Made by a program: the position numbers and the translations under genes
In this document: piece after piece, positions 42,456 to 48,505 of the stretch
Position numbering within the stretch: position 1 is the stretch's first letter
Layout of the letters: each line of letters opens with the position of its first letter
Source: Idiomarina seosinensis
GTDB taxonomy: Bacteria > Pseudomonadota > Gammaproteobacteria > Enterobacterales > Alteromonadaceae
Length of the DNA stretch: 64,000 nt
NCBI RefSeq assembly: GCF_003987275.1
Contig: NZ_PIQF01000003.1
Coordinates: 171,315-235,314 of the forward strand
Direction: 5' to 3'
The notes under the pieces: generated by a model
Seen by the model: only the letters and a program-made list of their open reading frames with translations
Told to the model about the DNA's origin: nothing
Database searches by the model: none

Positions 42456-43238
42456 CTAGAACAATAACAGTTTCGCAACTACACCGATTAGCAATACAAA
42501 CGTAAAACTAGCTAATGTTCCTAGCAGAACGTATTCATTGAGTTGAGTATCTTTAGCTTTGTTCTCACCAAATCTCAGAACTGACTTAGCCGCGATGATA
42601 AAACCAATCGCCGTGTATTGATTTGCAAAAATTAAAGTAAGAGTGATTAAGCGCTCTAGGTATCCAATTAACTTTCCGGCCTTGGGGATCTGACGGTTGT
42701 CGGCTACGTCTCGAGATTGAAGTATAAGTTTTACTAAAATTGATGTTGGCTTTAAGGTTAATAAATAAGCCGCCACAATGATGAGATGCTCCAATGAAAT
42801 TTGCTCAACCCAGTTTAGGTTATTACTAAACAAAATCAGCCAGATAACAATGATCGATAGAATGTGAGCTAATTGGTCAAATAACAGTGTGCTTAGAGCA
42901 TTGGTTTTTAACGACTTAAAAAAACGCTCCGCTACTGCTTTCGCTACGTCTATAACTAAGTGTGTACTGGCTAACCAAATAGTGACCTTATACAATTCAC
43001 TATCGGAAACCCAAATAAGTCCCAGCTTATGTGCAGTAAAAAGTGCTGCTAGGATGAGAAAACCGTGCAAAAGTGCGTGCGATAGCTGTGAGGTTATAAA
43101 ATAGCAATGAAGATAATAACGTCTTTTGGGGCGGTAGAAGACAAAACGTTTGGCTTTAACCCACTTATCGGTTTGTAGATAAAAATCACCTACAATGTGG
43201 GTGATTAGTAGTAAGACGAGGATAAAGTATTCGTTCAT
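42456..43238 (-). CDS. DUF3307 membrane protein
   Basis: The 260-residue product has several predicted membrane helices. The DUF3307 opening VLLLITHIVGDFYLQTDKWV is present, followed by basic segments and histidines (HALLHGFLI). The gene starts 4 bases after the SatD-like gene ends, so the two form an operon. SatD/DUF3307 pairs occur in many bacteria without an established function. The gene is A/T-richer than most of the window, which suggests horizontal acquisition. A proton- or ligand-linked membrane partner for SatD is only a guess. Confidence 0.82.
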   Translation of the reverse strand: MNEYFILVLLLITHIVGDFYLQTDKWVKAKRFVFYRPKRRYYLHCYFITSQLSHALLHGFLILAALFTAHKLGLIWVSDSELYKVTIWLASTHLVIDVAKAVAERFFKSLKTNALSTLLFDQLAHILSIIVIWLILFSNNLNWVEQISLEHLIIVAAYLLTLKPTSILVKLILQSRDVADNRQIPKAGKLIGYLERLITLTLIFANQYTAIGFIIAAKSVLRFGENKAKDTQLNEYVLLGTLASFTFVLLIGVVAKLLLF

Positions 43239-43242
43239 ATTA

Positions 43243-43872
43243 TTATGCTTTAGCCTCGCTTATTAAGTCGCCTGCGTAAGTCAAATACTCTAAGACCGCT
43301 GTGTAATGGCTAGCGTTGAGTAACTTCGTGGTGTTGGCACGGCTTTTTTTAAGTCTATTACCAAGGTTCGCATGGGATTCATTATCGTGTTGCAGAAAGC
43401 AACTTAACACTTCGGCTTCGGTTTTGGTTAACGAAGATAAGTGCGCGTCCAGAATCTTAACCGTTACACCAAGATGTCGATGGAGGCTGCTGTCTGAGGA
43501 TGAGAATATAAATAACTCAGACTTCATTTTGTCTAGATTCCGCCCCGACATCACAAATGCCTCACCGGTAGAACTTTTAACATCATCGCGCATTTTATCA
43601 ATTTCTGCCACTGCAATGCTCTGTCGAACGTCAATCTTAGCTGACTTTAGGGACAAGCGGATGATAGAGGCAACGAATAGCGCTTCTTTAGGAAACGTTA
43701 GAATAATTTGGAATTCATCGCCGCGAAAAACATCGAAATGCATTTCTCGACTCTTCGCGAGCTGCTTTAAAACCTTTGTCAGATGTTCGAGCACGGTATT
43801 ATATGCTTTTACTTCAATCTGACTCGAGTCGACAATATCCCCAGTAATTACGGCTACTAAATTTTTAGACAT
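43243..43872 (-). CDS. SatD-like protein with C-terminal helix-turn-helix
   Basis: The 209-residue product opens with AVITGDIVDSSQIEV, the SatD-family element, followed by an alpha/beta domain with FDVFRGDEFQIIL. This fold is reminiscent of nucleotide-binding or cyclase-like domains. The C-terminal third, SLTKTEAEVLSCFLQHDNES then NLGNRLKKSRANTTKLLNAS, looks like a helix-turn-helix. SatD in Streptococcus mutans was named from an acid-tolerance locus. A DNA-binding tail together with three palindromes in its own promoter suggests autoregulation; this is inference. Confidence 0.82.
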   Translation of the reverse strand: MSKNLVAVITGDIVDSSQIEVKAYNTVLEHLTKVLKQLAKSREMHFDVFRGDEFQIILTFPKEALFVASIIRLSLKSAKIDVRQSIAVAEIDKMRDDVKSSTGEAFVMSGRNLDKMKSELFIFSSSDSSLHRHLGVTVKILDAHLSSLTKTEAEVLSCFLQHDNESHANLGNRLKKSRANTTKLLNASHYTAVLEYLTYAGDLISEAKA

Positions 43873-43902
43873 ATCGAAATCCCTAACTAATAGCGATCAA
43901 GA

Positions 43903-43976
43903 GTAACTACATACAGTTACAATAAGGAATGTAACCGAATTCAGTTACAATTTCAAATGTAACCGTATGTGGTTAC
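43903..43976 (-). promoter_or_regulatory. Three palindromic operators in the satD-like promoter
   Basis: Three 18-bp palindromes of form GTAAC-N8-GTTAC lie at 43903-43920 (GTAACTACATACAGTTAC), 43931-43948 (GTAACCGAATTCAGTTAC) and 43959-43976 (GTAACCGTATGTGGTTAC), exactly 28 bp apart. On the minus strand a -35-like TTGAAA (43951-43956) and a -10-like TACATT (43928-43933) are separated by 17 bases, and the middle palindrome falls in that spacer. This is a typical repressor arrangement. Confidence 0.75.
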
Positions 43977-45368: not shown

Positions 45369-45971
45369 ATGCCGAATCAAACCATTCGCTACTACAACGA
45401 TAATGCTGAGCAGTTTCTAGATGACACGCTAAATGTCGATATGTCTGTTGTTTATAATCAATTTTTGGCAATGGTGCCAGCCGGCAGCCGTATCCTGGAT
45501 GCGGGCTGCGGATCAGGTCGTGACGCTCTAGCTTTTTCGGATCAGGGATTTAAAGTGGCGGCTTTTGACGCCAGTGAAAAAATGGTGGAACAAGCACAAA
45601 AGCTGTTGCCAAACGCGGACATTAAACGAGCAACATTTTCTGATTACAGCTCTGATGAAACCTTTGACGCAATTTGGGCCTGTGCCTCCCTGTTACATGT
45701 GCCGGAAGACGAATTACCGGGAGTGCTCAGTCATTTATCGAACTTTTTAGCCCCCGAAGGTGTGTTTTATTGCTCGTTTAAATATGGTGATGAAGAACGC
45801 CATAATCAGGGAAGAGACTTTACCGACCTTAACGAAGAGAGATTGCATCAGGCGGTTCAGGATACACCACTTCATGTCGATGCCTTATGGGTCGATGCGG
45901 ATGCACGACCCGGGCGCGGAGACGAGCAATGGCTAAACGCAATTTTAAAAAAGAGTGCGGATGCTAAATGA
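45369..45971 (+). CDS. Class I SAM-dependent methyltransferase
   Basis: The 200-residue product has a Rossmann methyltransferase fold with motif I ILDAGCGSGRDALAF (about residues 40-54), an acidic motif II (VAAFDASEKMV) and motif IV-like CASLLHVPEDEL. It lacks DNA methyltransferase catalytic motifs, so it probably acts on a small molecule, RNA or protein. The stop codon overlaps the next gene's start (ATGATG), so the methyltransferase and HNH proteins are probably made together. Confidence 0.85.
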   Translation: MPNQTIRYYNDNAEQFLDDTLNVDMSVVYNQFLAMVPAGSRILDAGCGSGRDALAFSDQGFKVAAFDASEKMVEQAQKLLPNADIKRATFSDYSSDETFDAIWACASLLHVPEDELPGVLSHLSNFLAPEGVFYCSFKYGDEERHNQGRDFTDLNEERLHQAVQDTPLHVDALWVDADARPGRGDEQWLNAILKKSADAK

Positions 45972-47404
45972 TGTCGTTAGAACATTCCTTGCGACAGCTG
46001 GTTCAACGTTATCAACCGGTCGATGCCGGTAAGGAATCTTATCTCGGTGAGTCCGCGGCTGGCTATAATGTTGGCTCAAGTCAAATAGCTTCGTCGAACA
46101 TTATTCGTGACCCTTTGGACCGATTTCCTTCCCATGAGCTGTTTCACTTTTTGTCCGATCAGCGGCAGCAATTAAAAACGGATGATTTTCTATTTATTGC
46201 GCAAAACTTTGGGCAGTCAGCTAATAACAATATCGACCAAGGGCCACTGGCGCGGTTAAAGCTATTGTGCTCCAGGCTTGGCTTATCGTCGGTTGAGTCG
46301 AACATAACTGAGCATTATTGGATACTGGTTTTGCGCAAGCGCGCATGGGCTGCACAGCCTCTGGATCGAATAGAGAGTGTGTTGCGTCACGATAAGAAAA
46401 CAGCGACTTACAAGCTGGCGCTACTGCGAGCGTTTTGTGACATTGCGGAGCAGGGCCATGATTCGATGTATTGGTATGCCGATGGACGTGCCGGAGTCTC
46501 GTTAAATCGGTTGGCTGAATGTTGGCTAGAGTATTACTGGCCACTGTTGGTGCACGATATTGCGCAAATTCGCGGCAACGTTAACTTAAAGTTTGAAAAG
46601 GGTTTAAGGCTTTTGATTCAGGAAGCTGCGGAGCTTTACCGTCTGCCGGCTGAATCAATTAACCTATTGTCGGTGTTCTTGACCCAGCGAGAGCAAGATA
46701 GGCTGCCGGAGTCATTGGCGAATCGATATAGCAGGGTTATAAAAGAAATTTCTCAGACCATTATCAGAGGCCCTGTTGACTATACTAAAGGCGAGTTATT
46801 TGAATATGATCAAGCTCAGCAAAAGATTATGGTGGATGGCGATCTTTGGCAGGAGTTTTGTTTGTCTGGCTATTGGGTCAGAGACTCGCTGCTAGTTCGC
46901 TGGGCAGAGCTTTCTGCTTCTTTAGCAGCTGTTGGTGTCCCGACACCGGTGCAAAAAGCGCATGTGTTTGGAGTGTTACTAGAGAGTAGCAACGTCGCCC
47001 GGGATCAGTCGGTTGCGAGTAAATACTACAAGCAGCAAAGCAACCTCTGTTGCGTATGGACAGATGAACAGATATCCGCAAAGACTCTTGCGGTCGATCA
47101 CGTTCTGCCGTTTAGCCTTTGGTTTTCTAATGACCTGTGGAACCTGCAGCCGAGCTTTAAAGCGGTGAATTCAAGAAAAGGTGATAAGGTCCCACTGCCA
47201 GAGCTTTTGCAGCAAAGAAAAGATCCGTTATTGGATAACTGGCGTTACTTATATGAGTGCGAACCAACACAGTTTAAAAGTGAAGTGACTCGAACTATCG
47301 GTCGTTTTGAACAACGTAACTGGCGTGAACAATTGTTCAGCCATTTACTACAAACTGCTGAAATTGCGGTTAATGCCCGGCAACTGCCGGCGTGGGAAGG
47401 GTAA
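45968..47404 (+). CDS. HNH endonuclease domain protein
   Basis: The 478-residue product has a long helical N-terminal region without a recognised family (about residues 1-340) and a C-terminal HNH nuclease domain. There, AVDHVLPFSLWFSNDLWNLQ has the catalytic-type Asp-His (His378), followed by the Asn and Lys of NSRKGDKVP; cysteines in LCCVWTDEQ may contribute to zinc binding or structure. It likely cleaves nucleic acid. Paired with a methyltransferase it could be a defence or repair module, but no helicase or specificity subunit is nearby. Confidence 0.8.
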   Translation: MMSLEHSLRQLVQRYQPVDAGKESYLGESAAGYNVGSSQIASSNIIRDPLDRFPSHELFHFLSDQRQQLKTDDFLFIAQNFGQSANNNIDQGPLARLKLLCSRLGLSSVESNITEHYWILVLRKRAWAAQPLDRIESVLRHDKKTATYKLALLRAFCDIAEQGHDSMYWYADGRAGVSLNRLAECWLEYYWPLLVHDIAQIRGNVNLKFEKGLRLLIQEAAELYRLPAESINLLSVFLTQREQDRLPESLANRYSRVIKEISQTIIRGPVDYTKGELFEYDQAQQKIMVDGDLWQEFCLSGYWVRDSLLVRWAELSASLAAVGVPTPVQKAHVFGVLLESSNVARDQSVASKYYKQQSNLCCVWTDEQISAKTLAVDHVLPFSLWFSNDLWNLQPSFKAVNSRKGDKVPLPELLQQRKDPLLDNWRYLYECEPTQFKSEVTRTIGRFEQRNWREQLFSHLLQTAEIAVNARQLPAWEG

Positions 47405-47422
47405 AGATACAAGGAGGCTATT

Positions 47423-47725
47423 ATGCCAGACGTTTGGCGAGAAAAAGACGAACGGATGTATCAACACATTAAGCAGACCCAGTTGGATGAGGGTAAAAGT
47501 GAGGAAGAGGCTGAAGAAATTGCCAGTCGCACGGTGAATAAGCAGCGGCGAGAGGAAGGTGAAACTGAGAATGTGACGACTCAGGGCACGGGTAATCCTA
47601 ATACGCCGCTGGAAGAGAGGACAAAGAACGAACTTTATAATCGTGCCCAGGAACTCAACATCGATGAGCGAAGCTATATGAGCAAAGACGAGCTCATTCA
47701 GGCAATTAGGCAAAAGCAGTCGTGA
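47423..47725 (+). CDS. Small protein with Rho N-terminal-like (SAP-type) domain
   Basis: The 100-residue acidic product has a charged N-terminal helix (WREKDERMYQHIKQTQLDEG) and a C-terminal segment TKNELYNRAQELNIDERSYM, the pattern of the Rho N-terminal RNA-binding helical bundle. Such small proteins occur in many proteobacteria and are of unknown role. AAGGAGG is placed just before the ATG. It follows the HNH gene by 18 bases, so it could be in that operon. Confidence 0.78.
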   Translation: MPDVWREKDERMYQHIKQTQLDEGKSEEEAEEIASRTVNKQRREEGETENVTTQGTGNPNTPLEERTKNELYNRAQELNIDERSYMSKDELIQAIRQKQS

Positions 47726-47797
47726 ATTGCAGCTGACGTTAACGCGGTTTAATGGTTTAATAACCGCACGTTTAATAGGAAAAATCAGTAGCAGGTC

Positions 47798-48505
47798 ATG
47801 GCCGACACTCAGTACATTACGAAAAATCGCCTTTCTCAAGAAGTAAACCAAGCCCGAAAATGGGTCGCCATTATCGGTGCGCCGATTGCCGCAACCCTTA
47901 TGTTCGCACTGCCACAGCTGTGGTGGGTTATAGCATTCGCCTACTTAATCCTGGTGTTTGGCGCGGCAGCGACTAAGAAGTCGGGTGCCAGCGGCGAGCT
48001 GAAGACCTTGAAACAGCTAGAGAAGCTGCCTGACGATTATGTGCTATTTAACCAAGTTGATGTTCCTAACCCGAAAACAAAGCGTGGTTATACCGAGCTC
48101 GACCTGATTGTGGTAGGGCCTAATGGCGTGTTTGTCATCGAGGTTAAAAACAATAATTCGAAAGTAACTGGTGATGAGCAAGCACCTAACTGGACGGCTC
48201 ACAAGGTGGGACAGAAGGGTGGTCGTTATACCGCTGACGTTCGCAACCCGATAAAACAGCTTAAAAAGCAGGTACACGTGCTGGCAACCTATTTAAAAGG
48301 TAAAAAAGCATCTACCTGGCTCGAGGGCGTGGTGTTTTTCTCTCATCGCAAAGCTCGGGTTAAATTAAGTTCTCCACCGAGTATCCCGGTGCTTGAGCGC
48401 AAAGGGTTGGTCGAACACATCCAGGCTTATCAGCCAAAACGCCCTCCAGCCAATCTGGACAAGGTTATTCAGCAGCTTATCGTCTTAAAGCAAGCAGCGA
48501 GTTAA
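47798..48505 (+). CDS. NERD domain protein (nuclease-related), membrane-anchored
   Basis: The 235-residue product has two N-terminal membrane helices (about residues 22-58), then a NERD domain: ASGELKTLKQLEKLPDDYVL, then the catalytic-type Asp and Glu-X-Lys in YTELDLIVVGPNGVFVIEVK. It ends in a basic tail. NERD domains resemble Holliday-junction-type nucleases and occur with defence or stress genes. The full catalytic pattern (E...D...ExK) is present, so activity is possible. Confidence 0.85.
   Translation: MADTQYITKNRLSQEVNQARKWVAIIGAPIAATLMFALPQLWWVIAFAYLILVFGAAATKKSGASGELKTLKQLEKLPDDYVLFNQVDVPNPKTKRGYTELDLIVVGPNGVFVIEVKNNNSKVTGDEQAPNWTAHKVGQKGGRYTADVRNPIKQLKKQVHVLATYLKGKKASTWLEGVVFFSHRKARVKLSSPPSIPVLERKGLVEHIQAYQPKRPPANLDKVIQQLIVLKQAAS

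Follow-up and report, generated by a model that had tools for sequence, protein, structure and literature searches.

In Idiomarina seosinensis, a satD-like gene and the DUF3307 gene that follows it may well form an autoregulated regulator-effector module, a reading held with moderate confidence, in which SatD would serve as a ligand-sensing autorepressor that restrains a potentially harmful membrane effector. The case is carried by conserved pairing of the two genes, by arrays of palindromes in front of satD whose half-sites covary with the helix-turn-helix (HTH) of SatD, and by the cyclase-type fold predicted for its N-terminal domain. If the reading is true, two protein families without a mechanism, SatD and DUF3307, would become one testable system of bacteria and haloarchaea, and a nucleotidyl-cyclase fold would have been put to use in a local repressor.

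Locus layout and conserved pairing

The pair lies in a 64,000-nucleotide stretch of the I. seosinensis genome, referred to here as the window (Table 1). An initial annotation, made from the letters alone, had described a two-gene unit with a 4-base gap, assigned its products to the SatD and DUF3307 families, and placed three matching palindromes in front of satD, all of which agrees with the present analysis. The open reading frames leave 4 bases between the satD stop and the partner start, the SatD assignment passes narrowly (PF16264, 29.6 bits against a gathering score of 29, residues 9-189), that of the partner passes clearly (PF11750, 62.4 bits against 23), and the palindromes have perfect arms and start-to-start distances of 28 and 28. 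The pair has a G+C content of 40.0%, compared with 48.7% for the window, which is among the lowest 1% of windows, and the region upstream of satD has 35.3%. At 45369-48505 of the window, one gene away from the pair, a methyltransferase gene overlaps an HNH_4 endonuclease gene and is followed by genes for Rho_N and NERD proteins, possibly a restriction-like cluster.

Table 1. Features of the satD-DUF3307 locus, in window coordinates
Feature	Position	Strand	Remarks
SatD-like protein	43243..43872	-	209 aa, cyclase-fold domain and C-terminal HTH
Partner membrane protein (DUF3307)	42456..43238	-	260 aa, 4 bases after satD
SatD residues 5-125, class III nucleotidyl cyclase-like domain	43498..43860	-	Aspartates D12, D52
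SatD residues 150-187, helix-turn-helix	43312..43425	-	Recognition helix 178-187
Partner residues 6-152, Pfam DUF3307 module	42783..43223	-	
Partner residues 185-244, C-terminal module (ER, AAKSxxR, EY, G, S)	42507..42686	-	Kept in short partners
Putative operator 1, GTAAC-N8-GTTAC	43903..43920	.	
Putative operator 2, GTAAC-N8-GTTAC	43931..43948	.	28 bp from operator 1
Putative operator 3, GTAAC-N8-GTTAC	43959..43976	.	28 bp from operator 2
Sigma-70-like promoter TTGAAA-17-TACATT	43928..43956	-	Consensus match only, interleaved with operators

Pairing proved to be conserved across genomes. A scan with a DUF3307 alignment was followed up at 82 loci, comprising the best 80 of 584 confirmed genome matches and two viral contigs, and a SatD reading frame stood directly upstream of DUF3307 on the same strand in 82/82, a figure that applies to close relatives of paired proteins because the scan alignment was itself built from SatD-adjacent DUF3307 proteins. 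With starts chosen by rule, the gap at these loci was 20 nt or less in 78 of the 82, and the genes touched or overlapped in 47, including a 4-nt overlap in 21. Two separate profile searches across the order found SatD in 56/394 genomes and DUF3307 in 56/394, and the genomes were identical, a coincidence whose chance probability would be about 10^-69 for independent genomes, an assumption that does not hold here. These searches are more neutral than the 82-locus scan, but both profiles also derive from paired members, and divergent pairs with short-type partners may be absent from the counts. Relatedness was corrected for in the partial Mantel test described below only, and the other counts are uncorrected.

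Plasmids carry the pair as well. All 16 plasmid records with a SatD match also match the partner, and four further records match the partner only; three of these are haloarchaeal, the partner in each being immediately preceded by a gene annotated as SatD, and a Fusobacterium record has an unannotated SatD reading frame in the same position. The 16 include plasmids of 3.77 and 4.4 kb (L021 and L022; E. coli and Klebsiella), of whose sequence the pair makes up a large share. On a Sphingomonas insulae plasmid (L028), the pair adjoins an annotated Pycsar effector and an adenylate/guanylate cyclase, with a TIR-domain protein upstream. The plasmid pair gave no megablast match in E. coli genomes, neither window protein had a tblastn match in phage records, and a scan of genome contigs with the window SatD alone found no relative.

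Distribution within the genus is patchy, with SatD in 10 of 18 congeners. Long flank matches among Idiomarina copies are confined to two pairs of genomes, a third match spanning 37 bases, and in an empty-site search the upstream flank was common to one of the 18 congeners, a genome that lacks SatD and in which the next genes differ. On a broader scale, pairwise identities of the SatD N-domain and of the partner are correlated (r 0.81, n=80), and the partner tree clusters by genus and phylum, a single branch (support 91/91) setting Pseudomonadota apart from Bacteroidota. This division of the tree suggests that the pair is old in both Pseudomonadota and Bacteroidota.

Counts of SatD depend on the model used. 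PF16264 matches 5/299 Pseudomonadota genomes, four of them over the cut-off, and a 67-row SatD alignment matches 18/299 at E<=0.001, of which 13 at E<1e-20. The union of the five PF16264 genomes and the 13 strong alignment genomes is 15, of which PF16264 finds five and the alignment 13; the two that PF16264 finds and the alignment misses (G275 and G343) have partners of a short type. Four proteins behind weaker alignment matches were checked, and PF00211 was over the cut-off in one and just under it in another, the other two having FHA without PF00211. The one Bacillota relative found, in Aerococcus, has a SatD-like gene that matches Fusobacterium SatD (tblastn 9e-13), has no match to the SatD profile and precedes a DUF975 gene. 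On this Aerococcus tenax plasmid (L164, 2597-6209), the gene order is ribonuclease, barstar, SatD-like and DUF975.

SatD and the palindromes in front of it

The C-terminal HTH read from the sequence by the initial annotation reappears in an AlphaFold2 model made with 67 sequences, as helices 150-161, 167-173 and 178-187 (pLDDT 96.3), with weak profile matches to HTH chains. Of the three outcomes that the initial annotation had named as refuting, a lack of pairing across genomes and a lack of a predicted HTH both came out in the opposite sense. For the N-terminal domain, for which a fold prediction had been proposed as a check, the model predicts a class III nucleotidyl cyclase fold. The best Foldseek hits are the class III adenylyl cyclases Rv1900c (3e-6) and Ma1120 (4e-6), followed by a bacterial cUMP synthase (7r65) at 7e-5, and on structural re-alignment Cas10/Cmr2, GTP cyclohydrolase III and GGDEF domains tie in Z. 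The SatD profile also finds Ma1120 (E 5e-4), with TGDI aligned to FTDI and RGDsFQ to QGDGFM, a match that is weak alone and is outranked in the same list by a designed repeat protein (1.5e-4) aligned via the HTH-like part; the profile further matches a PF00211 protein in another genome.

Both metal aspartates, D12 and D52, are kept in 67/67 SatD rows, as are G51 and G110, and S16, Q55, S109 and G103 are kept in 66/67. Class III nucleotidyl cyclases have Asn-x3-Arg as a catalytic motif, while GGDEF- or Cas10-type synthases work without it, and SatD could be a synthase of that kind. This motif occurs anywhere in residues 95-125 in 0/67 rows and in 1/18 members of a smaller SatD alignment, of which the PF16264 model matches only 9/18 at E<=1. 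Because the motif is absent, SatD is termed here cyclase-like rather than a class III cyclase, and its modelled N-domain more probably senses a nucleotide than acts as a cAMP-type cyclase. The earlier picture of a sensor-regulator thus gains a cyclase-type fold in support of the sensor, and the ligand, the binding to DNA and the action of the membrane protein are parts that we infer.

Upstream of satD, the alternating arms of the three palindromes form a regular, inverted ladder. Without its spacing, the motif occurs no less often than chance predicts, with 33 matches in the window at up to two mismatches versus 25.5 expected, of which only three are exact, all upstream of satD. The compound pattern of motif and spacing, at up to three mismatches, has an expected count of 0.01 in the window and gives four overlapping matches, all at this locus. 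The host genome holds seven exact GTAAC-N8-GTTAC sites, three at this locus, and three sites of a reversed control pattern. The four remaining exact sites are close to the control number, three of them fall within stop-free frames of 220-487 codons, and no regulon was seen among them.

Similar arrays stand in front of most of the satD genes compared. Repeats across 108 upstream regions peak at lags of 28 (z 32), 29 (z 14.5), 56 (z 12.7) and 27 (z 7.5), and no other lag tested within 8-59 exceeds z 5. A palindrome array is significant at p<0.01 in 84/107 upstream regions versus 3/321 control stretches, and at p<0.05 in 93/107 versus 14/321, the controls being random stretches of the same loci, mostly coding, and not other upstream regions; one locus (L081), counted in the repeat analysis, was left out of array scoring for its Ns. 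Spacing is 28 in 55 and 29 in 29 of the 84 significant regions. The 14/107 regions with p of 0.05 or more include L012, L013, L019 (decayed) and L021-L024, the last group having palindromes of a different length that can be made out by eye. Among distant loci 7/8 pass the array test, and three are haloarchaeal, two of these being near-copies; the Fusobacterium locus has an array p of 0.47. The proposal that palindromes accompany the pair therefore stands for the architecture, an 18-bp palindrome at 28/29-bp spacing, which is conserved (84/107 regions), but not for the exact GTAAC-N8-GTTAC, which is lineage-specific.

Half-sites vary by lineage and include GTAAC, TTAGCC, GCAAAC, ATCGGC, TTCGTA and TCAACC, among others. 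They occur with different recognition helices: SRxNvTK with GTAAC, ATASKSLK with TTAGCC, TRQNVxxHLKRSG with GCAAAC, and SEALKRAH with ATCGGC. In a partial Mantel test (n=84), half-site similarity correlates with that of the HTH given the N-domain (r 0.378, reached in 0/999 permutations), compared with 0.048 for the N-domain given the HTH. Among the evidence that the sites are read by SatD itself, this covariation weighs most, and it strongly supports reading of the arrays by SatD. The operator-helix pairs would be a natural series for reading an HTH recognition code.

The arrays likely repress the operon, as judged from their position. Sigma-70 consensus matches in the operator region number four, versus 5.0 expected by shuffling, and in 30/49 array-bearing loci outside Bacteroidota the highest-scoring promoter match overlaps the top two operators, a modest excess over the 43% expected.

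The DUF3307 membrane partner

The AlphaFold2 model of the partner is all helical (pLDDT 89.6). No solved relative was found, and Pfam recognised no ligand-binding domain. Invariant residues in 66 close relatives comprise H14, D18, Q22, H54, H93, D97, D121, Q122 and H125 in the N-terminal module and E195, R196, K218, S219, R222, E235, Y236 and S244 in the C-terminal module. In a diverse set of 16 sequences the invariant residues are F19, Q122, G188, G192, E195, R196, K218, R222, E235, Y236, G240 and S244, and since these lie mostly in the C-terminal part, that part is the steadier of the two.

The protein after SatD matches only the C-terminal module in two Pseudomonadota genomes (G275 and G343), one Agrobacterium plasmid, one Sphingomonas plasmid and a haloarchaeal Natronosalvus plasmid. 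Loci at which such a short protein, without the Pfam DUF3307 domain, follows SatD are L113, L114, L126, L165 and L166. The SatD of L114 led to five plasmid records (four Agrobacterium, one Sphingomonas) whose SatD is more divergent and which have no match in the DUF3307 search; this speaks against DUF3307 as a universal partner, and in the two records that were inspected the next gene encodes the C-terminal module of the partner alone. From these sequences, the C-terminal module looks like the constant partner of SatD, though Pfam defines the family by the other module.

The N-terminal module has possible counterparts in phages. PHROG 2470 matches partner residues 5-137 at 1e-10. Phage DUF3307 proteins include those of Ralstonia phage RP12 (A0A1L7N193), Podoviridae sp. 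ctOAf25 (A0A8S5PQC1) and Serratia phage BF (A0A1S6UAT4). They are 94-128 aa long and their resemblance is confined to the N-terminal module, at target TM values of 0.72-0.80 and E values from 0.11 to 5.2 that are not significant (RP12, 0.80 and 0.11; BF, 0.73 and 5.2). They are possible decoys, or have an unrelated use.

Mechanism, alternatives and known systems

In the proposed mechanism, SatD dimers, probably side by side, would bind tandem 18-bp palindromes 28/29 bp apart around the promoter, and bound SatD would hold the operon off; dimerization, cooperativity and repression are steps that we infer. The N-domain would most likely bind a nucleotide and not form a cAMP-type product; the DNA would be freed either by this ligand or by its loss. 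Release would raise the co-translated membrane protein. The part of it that stays constant is the C-terminal membrane module, which carries invariant charged residues and is in most cases joined to a DUF3307 module rich in His and Asp. This partner is probably a membrane-active, growth-limiting effector, to which SatD would also be the antidote.

Two observations speak for SatD as the guard over a harmful membrane effector. In Streptococcus pyogenes, where 178/249 genomes carry it, satD stands alone among accessory genes in having an essentiality score within the top quarter (PMC11323703), a result that concerns satD itself. Four decayed loci were noticed, not drawn at random. Two genomes have an intact SatD and a broken partner; in a third the partner is likewise broken and SatD seems to have lost its 3' end; in the fourth SatD carries an internal deletion and no partner was found. 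The opposite state, an intact partner next to a broken SatD, occurs in 0/4, too few for statistics. Essentiality and decay pattern together favour the antidote role, and the model offers an explanation for why satD is missing from many S. pyogenes genomes yet essential where present.

A rival account is an ordinary toxin-antitoxin or addiction module, serving chiefly to keep plasmids and sensing no signal, in which SatD would counteract a membrane toxin through autorepression or by direct contact. An operon of two genes that starts with the regulator and has operator arrays, carriage on the 3.77- and 4.4-kb plasmids, an accessory gene that is nonetheless essential in S. pyogenes (PMC11323703), and the retention of the partner alone in none of the decayed loci seen all point this way. 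The invariant metal-binding residues, on the other hand, point to a ligand or catalysis, and a partner tree that clusters by genus and phylum implies that many copies are not short-lived plasmid passengers. Antitoxins are also usually smaller than SatD. On balance this account is unlikely, while keeping some weight.

In a second-messenger system, SatD would produce a nucleotide signal in the manner of Pycsar or Cas10/mCpol palms, the signal would activate or open the partner, and the HTH would only set expression. This reading draws on the cyclase/GGDEF/Cas10 palm fold with both aspartates invariant, the cUMP synthase 7r65 among the Foldseek hits (7e-5), the membrane nature of the partner, and the Sphingomonas plasmid pair beside an annotated Pycsar effector, a cyclase and a TIR protein. 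It has to contend with the absence of the class III Asn-x3-Arg, with a partner in which no ligand-binding domain is recognised, and with PADLOC families, which match neither protein at E up to 1; it is given a rather low probability. The S. mutans sat operon was reportedly the subject of a study by Kremer in 2001. In that operon, from which it takes its name, satD is associated with acid stress tolerance (as cited in PMC11323703). The name, 'secretion and acid tolerance D', would suggest a stress or acid-tolerance regulator whose partner is a membrane transporter with a housekeeping role, a reading that is improbable given the patchy presence (10/18 congeners; 56/394 genomes), low G+C and plasmid carriage, which argue against housekeeping.

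Within the favoured reading of a nucleotide-gated autorepressor and its membrane effector, a defence role is plausible from sequence context, the pair being patchy, partly plasmid-borne and once beside Pycsar and TIR genes. A neighbour scan with PADLOC and Pfam, for which 77/82 loci were parsed (of the best 80 of 584 matches and two viral contigs), counted five NYN genes, four helicases and two type I restriction-modification genes among 132/145 immediate neighbours without a control set, and none of the 25 families listed (of 151 and 128) was a recurrent defence partner. More tentatively, and as a possibility that we would not yet expect to hold, the pair might be a defence or stress-arrest system of bacteria and archaea, in which a cyclase-fold, nucleotide-gated repressor watches a nucleotide pool disturbed by infection or stress and releases a membrane effector; stand-alone phage DUF3307 domains might then be decoys, and operator and recognition helix might co-diversify so that co-resident copies avoid cross-talk.

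In the open-licence literature, DUF3307 is mentioned in one paper and the SatD family in one, no paper naming both SatD and DUF3307 was found, and a description elsewhere is possible; searches of the same literature for SatD with phage and toxin-antitoxin terms gave nothing beyond a Fusobacterium annotation paper. An S. suis paper lists satD as a 'DNA-binding protein' (PMC12005413).

Among known families, SatD shares with PF16264 a near full-length match that reaches into the HTH (29.6 bits), but that family was named from streptococcal acid tolerance and its model matches only 9/18 members. With the class III cyclases Ma1120, Rv1900c and PycC it shares the fold and both metal aspartates, but SatD lacks Asn-x3-Arg and is fused to an HTH. 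The phage DUF3307 proteins of RP12 and BF are like the N-terminal module of the partner, but at 94-119 aa they lack the C-terminal module, and the phage collection has no SatD match. Pycsar likewise combines a cyclase with a membrane effector, as a cyclase-fold gene here adjoins a membrane protein gene; in contrast, neither protein matches PADLOC, and an HTH and an operator array are present. Type II toxin-antitoxin systems share the regulator-first order, close or overlapping genes, upstream palindromes and some plasmid carriage, and their two-gene operon with autoregulatory operators has a counterpart here at the level of sequence; they differ in that the regulator here would have a nucleotidyl-cyclase fold and the partner, a putative toxin, is a polytopic membrane protein.
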